DNA of 64,000 bases from contig NZ_CP032762.1 of NCBI RefSeq assembly GCF_003641205.1, positions 4,603,501 to 4,667,500 of the forward strand. The letters run 5' to 3'. The notes under the pieces are model-generated. The model was not told where the DNA came from. It worked only from the letters and a program-made list of their open reading frames with translations, and did no database searches. Below are positions 21,817-26,400 of the stretch, in pieces (position 1 is the stretch's first letter; each line of letters opens with the position of its first letter). A program made the translations under genes and the position numbers. The stretch is from Rhodococcus sp. P1Y (GTDB lineage: Bacteria; Actinomycetota; Actinomycetes; Mycobacteriales; Mycobacteriaceae).

Positions 21817-22443
21817 ATGCCACGGCGCCGACCCACCCAGGAGCGGAGTCAGCGCAAATTCGATGCCCTGCTCGCATCGTCGCGGGACTTGCTCAGCGAT
21901 GTCGGGTTCGAATCGTTCACCTGCGAAGAAGTAGCGGCGCGCGCCGAGCTGCCCATCGGCACCCTGTACCAGTTCTTTGCGAACAAGTACGTGATCGTGT
22001 GCGAGCTCAACCGTCAAGACCTGGTCGGTGTCCAGCAGGAGCTCGCCGAGTTCAACGGTGAAGTCCCGTCATTGGACTGGCTGCGCTTCCTCAACAAGTT
22101 CGTCGATCACATGGCTGGGATGTGGATGTCCGACCCTTCCCGACGCGAAGTGTGGCTGGCAATGCAATCCACCCCCTCCACCCGAGCGACCGGGGTCATT
22201 CACGAACGCGAGTTCGCCGATCAGGTCGCCAAAATGCTCGGCCCGCTGACTCCCCGCACTCCACGGGCCAAACGCAATCTGATGGCCCAGGTACTCGTCC
22301 ACATCGTCTACTCGATGCTGAATTTCTCCGTCCAGGACGGCCAGAGCCACGAGGACGCCGTCGCTGAGCTCAAGCAGATCATGACGGCCTACCTCCTCGT
22401 TGCGGAGAAGCAGTCCCGTCGATCGGGTGCAACCGTCGAATAG
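21817..22443 (+). CDS. TetR-family transcriptional regulator
   Basis: 208 residues from ATG 21817, preceded by CAGGAG. GTG 21739 is an alternative adding 26 residues. The DNA-binding domain is clear: RSQRKFDALLASSRDLLSDV, then FESFTCEEVAARAELPIGTL and YQFFANKYVIVCEL. The ligand domain is helical with a Trp/Leu-rich middle (SLDWLRFLNKFVDHMAGMWM). It diverges from the Hsp70-like gene and reads toward the repeat array and the acpS-fas operon. It may regulate itself and the Hsp70-like gene via the palindrome at 21582. A role in fatty-acid control is conceivable from position only; it does not look like the mycobacterial FasR that I remember. Confidence 0.88.
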   Translation: MPRRRPTQERSQRKFDALLASSRDLLSDVGFESFTCEEVAARAELPIGTLYQFFANKYVIVCELNRQDLVGVQQELAEFNGEVPSLDWLRFLNKFVDHMAGMWMSDPSRREVWLAMQSTPSTRATGVIHEREFADQVAKMLGPLTPRTPRAKRNLMAQVLVHIVYSMLNFSVQDGQSHEDAVAELKQIMTAYLLVAEKQSRRSGATVE

Positions 22444-22669
22444 AACGCCAGTGGGTGGGCGCTGTTGCCCAATATTCTCGATGCCCGCGGGAATCCCCTG
22501 CATCCGGGCAAGTATTGGGCACTGACGCCCGCCCTCCGTTCGCCCCAGGTGACCGAAAGAACCGCTGGTCCGACTCGCGGTCCTCAGTGCGCACTATCGT
22601 CGGGAATCGACGGAATCCCGCCGCTACTGGCCGATAGTGTGCACACAGGTCCGCCGGTGCACTCCCGCG

Positions 22670-22910
22670 GTGACCGAATGAGACATTCGCTCACACCTGA
22701 GGTGACCGAATCAGCCGTTCGCTCACACCAGAGGTGACCGAATCAGCCGTTCGCTCACCACAAGTGACCGAATGAGACAGTCGCACACTCTGAGTGACCG
22801 AATCAGCCGTTCGATCACCCCAGGTGACCCAAGTAGACAGTCGCTCACCCCAGGTGACCGAATGAGACATTCGCTCACACCTGAGGTGACCGAATCAGCC
22901 GTTCGGTCCG
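22670..22910. repeat. Array of eight 25-nt imperfect palindromes
   Basis: Eight units begin GTGACC at 22670, 22702, 22734, 22764, 22794, 22824, 22854 and 22886, spaced 30 or 32 bp. Each can fold: stem GTGACCGAAT with ATTCGCTCAC or a close variant around a 5-nt loop, GAGAC/TAGAC in some and CAGCC in others. Linkers of 5-7 nt separate units. Units 1-2 and 7-8 share a 50-nt identical block, pointing to recent duplication. A decayed unit lies at 22549. The array sits between the TetR stop and the acpS terminator. Nothing coding is visible. Spacers are far too short for a CRISPR array. Confidence 0.9.
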
Positions 22911-22947
22911 CCGGTCCGCCGGGCCGCCGGGCCGCCGGGCCGCCGGA
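22906..22947. repeat. GC-only minisatellite (GCCGCCGG-type)
   Basis: About five tandem copies of an 8-nt unit (GGGCCGCC and one-base variants) follow directly on the last palindrome unit. It appears to have grown out of the truncated end of unit 8, which changes from GCTCAC to GGTCCG. Slippage-prone and non-coding. Confidence 0.8.
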
Positions 22948-22962
22948 ACGAACCCCACACAC

Positions 22963-23007
22963 ACGAAAACGCCGGCCCACCCGCAGGTGGACCGGCGTTT
23001 CGGTGTG
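22963..23007 (-). terminator. Intrinsic terminator of the fas-acpS operon
   Basis: Arms CGAAAACGCCGGCCCACC and GGTGGACCGGCGTTTCG form a long stem with a CGCA loop, one bulge and one mismatch, extended by ACAC/GTGT. It lies 8 bp beyond the acpS stop and carries a TTTTCG run on the acpS strand. Confidence 0.75.
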
Positions 23008-23014
23008 TACAGAC

Positions 23015-23407
23015 CTACTCCTCCAGGATCGCCACCGCTGCAGCGATGTCGCCGTCATGGGTGAGCGAAAGGTGGATCTTCACCGTCGGCAGGAACTCGA
23101 GTGCCATTCCGTGCAGCTTGATGGACGGCCGACCCCACGCGTCGTTGACGACCTCGATCAAGGGATACGGGTTGTCACCGATCTGCGGTGGTCGAGCGAA
23201 CCGTGAGGTCGCCCAAGCCTTCAGCACTGCTTCCTTGGCGGCCCACCGTGCTGCGTAGTGGCGGGCAGGTTCGGAACTCTTCGTCGCTGCGTGTCGACGC
23301 TCCCCCGCGGTGAAGCTGTCGCGGATCATCGTCGTGCCGGCTTTTTCCATCTGCTCGGCGAAGTCGGACACGGTCACCAGGTCGAAACCCACTCCCAAGA
23401 TGGCCAT
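23015..23407 (-). CDS. acpS: Holo-[acyl-carrier-protein] synthase
   Basis: 130 residues from ATG 23407; GTG 23419 would overlap the fas stop and add four residues. It opens MAILGVGFDLVTVSDFAEQM with the catalytic Asp9, and contains ARHYAARWAAKEAVLKAWA with the magnesium-binding Glu. The C-terminus KIHLSLTHDGDIAAAVAI is typical. AcpS transfers 4'-phosphopantetheine from coenzyme A to the Ser of acyl carrier proteins. The start codon lies 2 bp after the fas stop codon, so the two genes are one operon. The neighbour is also its main substrate, since this FAS I lacks its own phosphopantetheinyl transferase domain. Same order as Rv2524c-Rv2523c. Confidence 0.97.
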   Translation of the reverse strand: MAILGVGFDLVTVSDFAEQMEKAGTTMIRDSFTAGERRHAATKSSEPARHYAARWAAKEAVLKAWATSRFARPPQIGDNPYPLIEVVNDAWGRPSIKLHGMALEFLPTVKIHLSLTHDGDIAAAVAILEE

Positions 23408-23409
23408 AT

Positions 23410-26400
23410 CTACTTGCACCCCGGCAGACCCGAGCGGTAGACGTCGTCGTCGCCGAGGCGTGCAGCCTCGTTGAGCAAGACGTCTGCCTCGAGCTCGCGC
23501 GACGCCTTGGCGGGCGTCCCGTCGTGTCCGAGCCTTCGGTCGTCCGGTCGCTCGTACAGGGCGTCACCTCCCACCATTGCGGAGATCAGCCTGCGCTGAC
23601 CGGCGATACGACGCGCATTCGCCTTGGCCACGTACTCCTCGCGCTGTGCGACGGGTACAGCCTCGACGAACGCCTGCGGGTGCACGACGGCGATGAGGCC
23701 GGAGACGTGTCCGAAGCCGAGCGAGGTCAGCAGACCGGCCTTCAGGGGCACCGAGTCACCGAACCTCAATGGCTCCCGAGCCCACACGAGGTGTTCGTAG
23801 CTCGTCATCTTGTCGTCGACGCAGTCGAGACTGCGGTTCGGCGGGATGACGCCGTTTGTGAGCACCTGGCAGAGTCCGATCAGCTGGAATGCTGCGGCGC
23901 CGCCCTTCGAGTGTCCGGTGAGGCTCTTCTGCGAGACGACGAACAGCGGTGCACCGTCGGTGCGGCCGATGGCCTTTGCGAGGCGGGTGTGAAGCTCGGC
24001 CTCGTTCGGGTCGTTGGCTGCGGTGGAGGTGTCGTGCTTGGAGATCACGGCGATCTCGTCGGCACTGACGCCAAGAGCGTTCAGTGACAGTGCGAATGTC
24101 GAATCCTTGCCGCCGCGACCGGCGCTGAGTGCGCCGAGTCCCGGAGCCGGGATGGAGGTGTGCACACCGTCGCCGAACGACTGTGCGTACGCCACCACAC
24201 CGAGGACCGGGAGACCCATTTCGAGTGCAAGGTCTCCGCGCGCCAGCAGGATGGTTCCGCCGCCCTGCGACTCCACGAATCCGCCGCGACGACGATCGTT
24301 GGCCCGCGAGAATCGACGATCACTGATTCCCTTGGCGGACATCGCTGCCGAGTCCGCTGTTGCCGACATGTCGCCGAAGCCGATGATGCCTTCGGTGCTC
24401 AGGTCGTCGAAGCCGCCGGCCACGACCAGTTGCGCCTTGCCCAACTTGATCTTGTCGACGCCTTCTTCGACGGAGACTGCCGCGGTGGCGCAGGCGGCGA
24501 CGGGGTGAACCATCGCGCCGTAGCTACCGATGTACGACTGAACCACGTGCGCAGCAACGACGTTCGGCAGAGCTTCCTGCAGGATGTCGTTCGCACGAGC
24601 GTCGCCGAGCAACGTGTCGATGTACAGCGAGCGCATCGACTCCATACCGCCCATGCCGGTGCCCTGGGTGTTGGCGACCAGCGTCGGGTGGACCCAGCGC
24701 ATCAGTTCCGACGGGTTGAAGCCCGAGGAGATGAACGCGTCGACCGTGGTGACGATGTTCCACAGTGCAACTCGGTCGATCGAGCTGGCCATGTCGGGCG
24801 AGATGCCCCACTTGGTCGGATCGAATCCGGTTGGAATCTGTCCACCCACGGTGCGGGTGAGCTTCATCTTGCGCGGAACGCGAATCTCGGTGCCGGCCTT
24901 GCGGGTGACCTGCCAATCACTCGAATCCGGAACCGGAGTGATCAGCGTGTGCTCGGGATCGGCTGCAGCGAACGAGCGTGCGTCGATCTCGGTTCCGACG
25001 ACGAACGTCAGGTCGTTGTCGAGGAAGATCGAGGTCATGAGCGGCGCAGAGTTGCCGACCATGGCGCCGTCGTCAGCGTAGGTGCGGATACCGCACTTCT
25101 CGACGACGATGTCGTGGTACTTGTCCGCGATCTCTTCTTCCGGCACGAAGTCGCCGGATTCGATGTCGTACCAGCCCGGCTTGGGGTCGTTCTCCCAGGC
25201 GATGAGGCCGGTGTTCCACGCGAGTTCGAGAACGCCTGCAGCAGAGAGCTGCTCGTCGACCTCCATCTCGAAGCGGGTACGAGCCGAGCCGTACGGCCCG
25301 AGCTCGCCGGCACCGACGATGACGATCAGGTCCTTCGGATCGACGTCGAGCTTCGGCCATGCCGGAGCGGTGGTCGCAGCGAGCCGCGGCGGTGCAGGCA
25401 GTGCGGCGATGACCGCGCTGTCGGCTTCTTCCACGACCTTGTCGGCAGCCGCTGCCGCAGCTTCACGAGCCAGCTCGACGAGGTTGAGCTTGGTGTTCGC
25501 CAAGCCGCCCGTCAGATCTGCGAGCAGCGGTGCTTCCGCAGCCTGACGCTGAGCTTTAGCGTCGGAGAGCTTCAGCAGTTCGGTTGCCATCTCGTCCGTG
25601 GACCAGGTGCGCACGCCTTCTGCTTCGACTGCCTCGACGATCGGATCGTTGCCGCCCATGAGGCCTGTTCCACGAACCCAGCCGATGTGCGCATGAGCAA
25701 TGGTGACCCGCTCGGCCCAATTCTTCTCCGAGCCCCACTTCGCCGCGATGGCGTCGAGCGCGGCCTTGGACTCGCCGTAGGCACCGTCGCCACCGAACAT
25801 TCCGCGGTTCGGAGAACCAGGCAGGACGACGTGCAGATGTGTGTCGACGTCGTTGTCGTAACCGATCTTCGACAGTCCGGCGATGAGACGCTCGACAGAC
25901 CAGAGCAGCACCCGCATTTCCATCTCGGCACGGCCACCGGCGTCGGACATTTCGCCGACGACGCGAGGCGCAGCGAACGGGAACAGCAAGGTCGGGGTGA
26001 TTCCGGCCTTGACGAGTGTCTTTGCGCCACCGGCATTGTCGACCTGGTCGGAGCCGATCCACTCGATGAGTGCGTCGACGTCCGAGTAGGACGCGATGTT
26101 GGCGGGCACGACCCACAGTGATGCACCGGCGCGAGCGTTCTCGCGGTACAGGCTGCGGTAGAAGCCGAGTCGCTCCTCGTCGAGACGTGAGGTGGTGACG
26201 AAGACCGTCGCTCCCCCACCCAGCAGCTTGGCTGCGACCGATGCGGCAATCGAGCCCTTGCTGCCGCCGGTGATCACGGCGACCTCGTCGGACCACTCGC
26301 CCTTCTCGTCGGAGTCGAGCGCGATCGCGGCGATCCGGCCGAAGGTGTCGGCAAGAACTGCCTTGCCCTCGGCGGCGGCCTTGGACTTCCACCACTGTGC

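Follow-up and report, generated by a model that had tools for sequence, protein, structure and literature searches.

The DNA analysed here (the window) is a stretch of 64,000 nucleotides from the 5.87-Mb genome of the soil actinobacterium Rhodococcus sp. P1Y, which is the own genome in all counts below. Two convergent genes face each other in it, one encoding a TetR-family regulator (21817..22443, + strand; Pfam TetR_N and TetR_C) and the other being acpS, of the holo-ACP synthase family (23015..23419, − strand; Pfam ACPS), which reads towards a repeat array. As a sequence-only reading had reported, eight 25-nt palindrome units lie there in tandem at 22670-22910, all on the + strand. Units 1 (22670..22694, loop GAGAC, C.C mismatch at pair 5:21), 2 (22702..22726, CAGCC), 3 (22734..22758, CAGCC), 4 (22764..22788, GAGAC, three stem mismatches), 6 (22824..22848, TAGAC, four stem mismatches) and 7 (22854..22878, GAGAC, the same sequence as unit 1) are R-type. 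Unit 5 (22794..22818, CAGCC) has C.A at pair 5:21, and unit 8 (22886..22910, CAGCC), in the cap position, has C-G at this pair and has lost its outer two pairs.

Several finer points of that reading changed on measurement. It gave each unit a stem of about 10 bp, but an intact 10-bp stem is present in none of the eight; pair 5:21 is mismatched in all of units 1-7 (C.A in unit 5, C.C in the other six) and paired in unit 8 only. Spacing was said to alternate between 30 and 32 bp and the loops to alternate likewise, yet the unit starts are 32, 32, 30, 30, 30, 30 and 32 bp apart and the loops run GAGAC, CAGCC, CAGCC, GAGAC, CAGCC, TAGAC, GAGAC, CAGCC. An identical block does occur at both array ends, with a length of 53 nt instead of 50 (22669..22721 and 22853..22905, + strand). 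Folded as RNA, the whole array region surpassed each of 200 shuffles, whichever strand was taken (z −6.0 and −8.7); on their own, units 1 and 8 were clearly better than shuffles and unit 4 was near them (z −1.2 and −0.7). An 8-bp tandem repeat (CGGKCCGC) at 22904-22943 overlaps and trails the end of the last unit. An Rfam search of 22300-23300 gave sub-threshold hits only, none at gathering score.

On the acpS side, folding identified a terminator-like hairpin separate from the array (22959..23008, − strand; −40.8 kcal/mol, with a UUUU run), placed after the acpS stop and before the array. All 29 relatives examined (L009-L037) have a strong hairpin downstream of acpS, and recognisable units, one to six each, were present at this site in seven of them (L009, L010, L011, L013, L014, L016 and L024). 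Thus, the terminator seems to be the older element here and the array to have been added next to it. Given the intervening UUUU hairpin and the acpS hairpin in 29 of 29 relatives, this locus speaks against the earlier suggestion that the array stabilises the 3' end of the fas-acpS transcript. Because the array lies beyond that hairpin, any role at acpS would bear mainly on read-through from the TetR side.

On the TetR side, a long imperfect hairpin (22445..22543, + strand; −50.7 kcal/mol) lies just 3' of the stop codon. A copy about 85% identical was found at G000:C1:1390020-1390135, 5' of another array and with an unrelated gene alongside, and a 127-bp block comprising hairpin and array start is 86% identical between the window and this 1.39-Mb array, which suggests that the two were copied together between the loci. 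The fragment GTGACCGAAAGA (22550..22561, + strand) may be what is left of a former first unit; at the homologous position of the 1.39-Mb locus the unit is intact. Another palindrome separates this fragment from the array. A second dispersed palindrome, GTGCGCACTATCG...CGATAGTGTGCAC (22588..22643, + strand), is unrelated to the array unit; weaker matches to it were found both in the own genome (at 689115, 1181583 and 2901394) and in genomes G010, G018 and G006.

A search of the own genome with the unit pattern GTGACCGAAT-N5-ATTCGCTCAC, the check proposed in the sequence-only reading, returned 116 forward and 107 reverse hits at up to 3 mismatches, palindromic sites being counted on both strands, against 0 for the reversed control. 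The recurrence of the array unit is not due to chance. Of 36 own-genome stretches fetched, 33 were chosen around hits among the matches listed, and units were present in all 33, making 34 loci with the window; the remaining three stretches (one other site and two contig ends) were without units. A further unit site at 845336, outside the fetched stretches, brings the number to at least 35 loci. In the fetched own stretches and the window, 166 units were counted; they form 41 clusters, each of 1 to 11 units.

The family is not confined to this strain. The symmetric palindrome GTGACCGAA-N7-TTCGGTCAC (the cap pattern), searched as an exact match, was found in 16 of 37 genomes of the genus. Outside the genus it was found in one of 364 genomes of the family, a sample of a larger set, so by this pattern the palindrome family appears nearly genus-restricted. 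Since the exact cap is missing from 21 of the 37 genus genomes, the family is dispensable. Five of the 16 cap-bearing genomes (G020, G021, G028, G029 and G032) have exactly one exact copy each, in every case in a long hairpin beside one and the same gene, which we take to be that for glycyl-tRNA synthetase. The plasmid and viral collections searched gave no match, and topic and sequence-word searches of the open-licence literature found, among the matches listed, nothing on this repeat or on such Rhodococcus arrays. Several array matches lie at contig ends (for example G036 C12, C28, C9 and C23; also in G006), and draft assemblies may break at arrays and undercount them.

The arrays are polar, and most of them end in a symmetric unit. 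Orientation was taken from the majority side of the 5:21 mismatch, by which 41 of 45 arrays of at least three units in the own genome and in a second species (G010) could be oriented; the four others, at least one of which (L187) is of mixed orientation, were left out of the polarity count. In the 41 oriented arrays, 0 of 223 units run in the opposite sense. The symmetric unit (pair 5:21 being C-G) stands last only in 29 of them, first only in none, at both ends in five and at neither in seven. When oriented arrays of at least two units are considered, the pair is C.C in 153 of 185 internal units and C-G in 35 of 44 last units. Other genomes contributed 15 further arrays, with the symmetric unit last only in seven, at both ends in two, at neither in six and first only in none; L127, L128, L130, L131 and L137 were fetched via the cap pattern, which selects for the presence of a cap and not for its place, and L128, L214, L216 and L217 are of mixed orientation.

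Some caps reach beyond the unit: last units were extended by at least five further perfect pairs in 8 of 78 cases, compared with 7 of 1966 mixed-flank controls, and two extended cap hairpins fold at −29.6 and −39.8 kcal/mol. Some solitary sites are perfect dyads. A typical array has a spacer of about 5 bp and a period of 30-31 bp; periods of 29-32 dominate, with 30 the usual value except in stretches L212 and L213, where it is mostly 31. Within internal units the left arm is less variable than the right, with C5 constant in 185 of 185, any of the four bases at position 21, and frequent variation at 22 and 24, a contrast that arises partly by construction because arrays were oriented by the side of the 5:21 mismatch.

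Genes around the arrays were called with a home-made codon-usage script, and array-bearing gaps were compared with the other gaps of at least 50 bp in the same stretches and the window. None of the fetched arrays had most of its length within a called gene. The 35 array gaps of the own genome were 20 convergent, 12 tandem and 3 divergent, as against 6, 33 and 25 of the 64 other gaps (Fisher P = 5 × 10−7). The second species gave the same picture, with 16 convergent, 14 tandem and 2 divergent array gaps out of 32, compared with 3, 33 and 14 of 50 other gaps (P = 6 × 10−6), and own loci with solitary units only were in a convergent gap in 7 of 9 cases. The distance from stop codon to array has a median of 38 nt and is at most 40 nt at 51 of 98 array-facing gene 3' ends in the two genomes. 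In several gaps, for example L098, L101, L103, L110 and L113, both stop codons are within 30 nt of the array, which leaves only the array, or read-through, to end both transcripts.

We considered whether the arrays stand in for terminators. A canonical terminator was present between stop and array at 23 of these 98 ends, compared with 18 of 63 control 3' ends without arrays; with the array included, one was found within the first 250 nt at 47 of 98 array-facing ends. As control ends themselves have a canonical terminator in just 18 of 63 cases, the absence of another one beside an array is not telling, and the case for the array as a substitute terminator, weakened by control ends that lack canonical terminators about as often, was dropped. 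The proposal of a canonical multi-hairpin terminator fared no better: at least four T in the adjacent 8 nt were seen at 3 of 156 array ends, against a background of 3.9%. Without T-runs at their ends, the arrays are not canonical intrinsic terminators, in which a U-run comes after a GC-rich hairpin.

The sequence-only reading had also held that stem structure is better conserved than an unselected repeat would need, and it had predicted compensatory changes. In 55 distinct units, a chosen subset of those available from the own and related genomes, neither claim was supported over a 10-pair stem, with 499 of 500 shuffles pairing at least as well as the real stems. Paired cells made up 80.7%, compared with 82.5% in shuffles; two pairs had double changes, compared with 3.2; the covariation score was 0.073, compared with 0.087; and all five measures were below their shuffled means. 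The double changes were six cells at pair 10:16 and one at pair 5:21, pairs that were unpaired in 29 and 34 units. The true register paired better than slid versions (80.7% vs 16-40%), as it would for any palindrome. Thus, pairing is inherited with the palindrome, and we found no excess covariation from which maintenance by compensation would be evident.

At many places the locus has outlasted its units. For 17 of 34 own loci, a figure that is a lower bound, the flanks align at 76-93% identity with stretches of G010 that carry arrays (16 on both sides, one on one side), and orientation agrees in 14 of the 15 own-G010 array pairs in which both members can be oriented. Unit identity averages 0.769 between orthologous arrays and 0.773 between non-orthologous ones (at least three units on each side), and 0.816 within one array. 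Because flanks match while orthologous units are no more alike than others, loci persist and units turn over in place. In a comparison with empty sites by joined flanks at four own loci, both flanks were found for L106 only. The solitary own unit at L106 corresponds to variant units spaced 109 bp apart in two other genomes (L218 and L219), and this spacing is, judged by those orthologues, a different mode of growth at one place. For L103, alignment to G010 and G018 (L221 and L220) was obtained on the right side alone, with no unit there at up to 4 mismatches.

Repetitive extragenic palindromes (REPs), in the generic sense of extragenic palindromes of 20-40 bp in many copies, describe the 25-nt unit family, and the REP-like guess was the best of the four offered by the sequence-only reading in that the units are dispersed, intergenic and enriched at 3' ends; the more specific REP traits are lacking. 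PMC3733652 places REPs predominantly in unidirectional and convergent spacers, and our array family likewise favours convergent and tandem 3' ends. Unlike the GTAG/CGTC superfamilies of REPs, it has no constant tag, with GTAG or CGTC near an end in 8 and 10 of 278 units from the own genome and G010. GTAG-type REPs are usually linked to RAYT transposases (PMC2817692 and PMC3733652), tyrosine transposases that in REP/REPIN systems have inverted REPs on either side. A search for the RAYT-type domain Y1_Tnp (PF01797) gave 0 matches in the own genome and matches in 5 of 14 control genomes, and on that count RAYT-driven spread was rejected; the search covered the own genome and the controls, and a diverged or lost enzyme is possible. 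The head-to-tail arrangement with a cap also sets the own arrays apart from RAYT-linked REPs. BIMEs, which according to PMC2817692 have REPs in alternating orientation, are similar as clusters of regularly spaced intergenic palindromes, and differ in that none of the 223 oriented units above is reversed.

Two other known systems overlap with the arrays in part. Like bidirectional intrinsic terminators, the arrays offer a hairpin common to convergent stops, and some caps and the single copies in five genomes are long perfect hairpins; unlike them, array ends have no T-runs and internal stems are usually mismatched. As in minisatellites or VNTRs, tandem unit number differs between species at one locus, whereas at least 35 dispersed loci with one common unit and a common polarity are not minisatellite-like. 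By these sequence comparisons the window array is one locus of a REP-like family, a variant without the usual REP tag or alternation and without a detectable REP enzyme.

The explanation we prefer, tentatively and at somewhat less than an even chance, is that a REP-like family of 3'-end palindromes has been amplified in place and forms a hairpin barrier between facing transcripts. It takes up the dispersal, 3'-end placement, polarity with a cap, and persistence of loci with unit turnover established in the alignments and counts above, and adds a barrier or 3'-end role that we infer from placement. The starting point would be a solitary symmetric palindrome after stop codons, often between convergent genes. 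Amplification on site may then have given, at many sites, a one-way array of mismatched units in which the symmetric palindrome usually ends up as the last unit. If transcribed through, the arrays would leave both facing transcripts with 3' ends rich in hairpins, which would slow or halt RNA polymerase, hold off 3' exonucleases and in this way keep convergent transcription apart. Providing such 3' ends is probably the main role, since in many cases no other structure comes between an array and the two facing stops. Several observations count against a barrier: the stems have no excess of covariation and the internal 5:21 mismatch is destabilising; T-runs are missing from array ends; 21 of 37 genus genomes do without the exact cap; some array gaps are divergent (3 of 35 in the own genome and 2 of 32 in G010); and at acpS a strong hairpin is already present, with 22 of 29 relatives lacking a recognisable unit there.

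Close behind comes a neutral or selfish repeat, a real possibility, in which the arrays would be by-products of minisatellite-like slippage or recombination at palindromes that survive between gene 3' ends, where with no promoters and no coding sequence they do least harm. This would fit a unit number at the acpS site that runs from 0 in relatives to 8 here, a period that differs by stretch, the turnover of units between species, the stems without excess covariation, and a hairpin and array start common to two unrelated gene 3' ends. It fits less well with the half of own loci that have an array-bearing counterpart in G010, mostly in the same orientation, and a cause is needed for the placing of the cap at one end, a strong rule (29 arrays to 0) seen again in other genomes, where the symmetric unit was last only in 7 of 15 arrays and first only in none. 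That same rule and the head-to-tail order are also more than a simple operator would need, which is one reason why we think it unlikely that the arrays are DNA-binding sites, each unit being a dyad operator for a dimeric protein with the left half-site GTGACCGAA as main contact, repeated about every three helical turns. The less variable left arm (partly by construction), the dominant period of 29-32 and the perfect dyads among solitary sites would suit such a protein; the strong preference for gene 3' ends over promoters and the turnover of units would not. A regulator specific to acpS-fas or the TetR gene, to which location alone points, is highly improbable given arrays at no fewer than 35 loci, 22 of 29 relatives without units at the acpS site, and a terminator-like hairpin intervening on the acpS side. 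Rather unlikely, if a little less so than the operator array, is that these RAYT-free, polar, capped arrays have a growth mode of their own and a dedicated role between convergent genes, with the perfect cap hairpin as the active barrier and, behind it, mismatched units added one way; the 5:21 mismatch might then be kept since tandem palindromes without it would be prone to instability or mis-pairing.

The family is present at 35 or more loci without a detectable RAYT, and its polarity of growth points to another route of spreading or amplification. If arrays do insulate convergent genes, they could provide natural, tunable 3'-end parts for Rhodococcus-type hosts.

Other readings were tried and set aside. 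A signal linked to replication was suggested weakly by a hand count, in which about 19 of 29 oriented loci ran in one sense relative to the fork; with dnaA at 760634 and a skew change at about 3.2-4.0 Mb, the terminus would be near 3.7 Mb, which is not the centre of the array-sparse stretch that runs from about 2.1 to 3.9 Mb and contains three fetched loci. Orientation relative to tandem genes was also weak (11 antisense vs 5 sense of 16), and insertion into older terminator hairpins was rejected as complementarity of the outer flanks was little raised (mean run 0.77 vs 0.69 in mixed flanks). In both species, two opposed arrays enclose two reading frames, one of them a GNAT acetyltransferase gene (L095 2439-4424 in the own genome, and L199), the GNAT assignment coming from a Pfam run on the L095 gene only. 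A mobile enzyme between these arrays was rejected, one gene encoding the acetyltransferase and the second ORF, inspected by eye, not being transposase-like. At the G010 counterpart of the acpS-TetR interval (L163 1012-3879), acpS and the TetR gene are separated by a UPF0182-family gene with three units beside it; in the own genome the corresponding place is taken up by spacer only.
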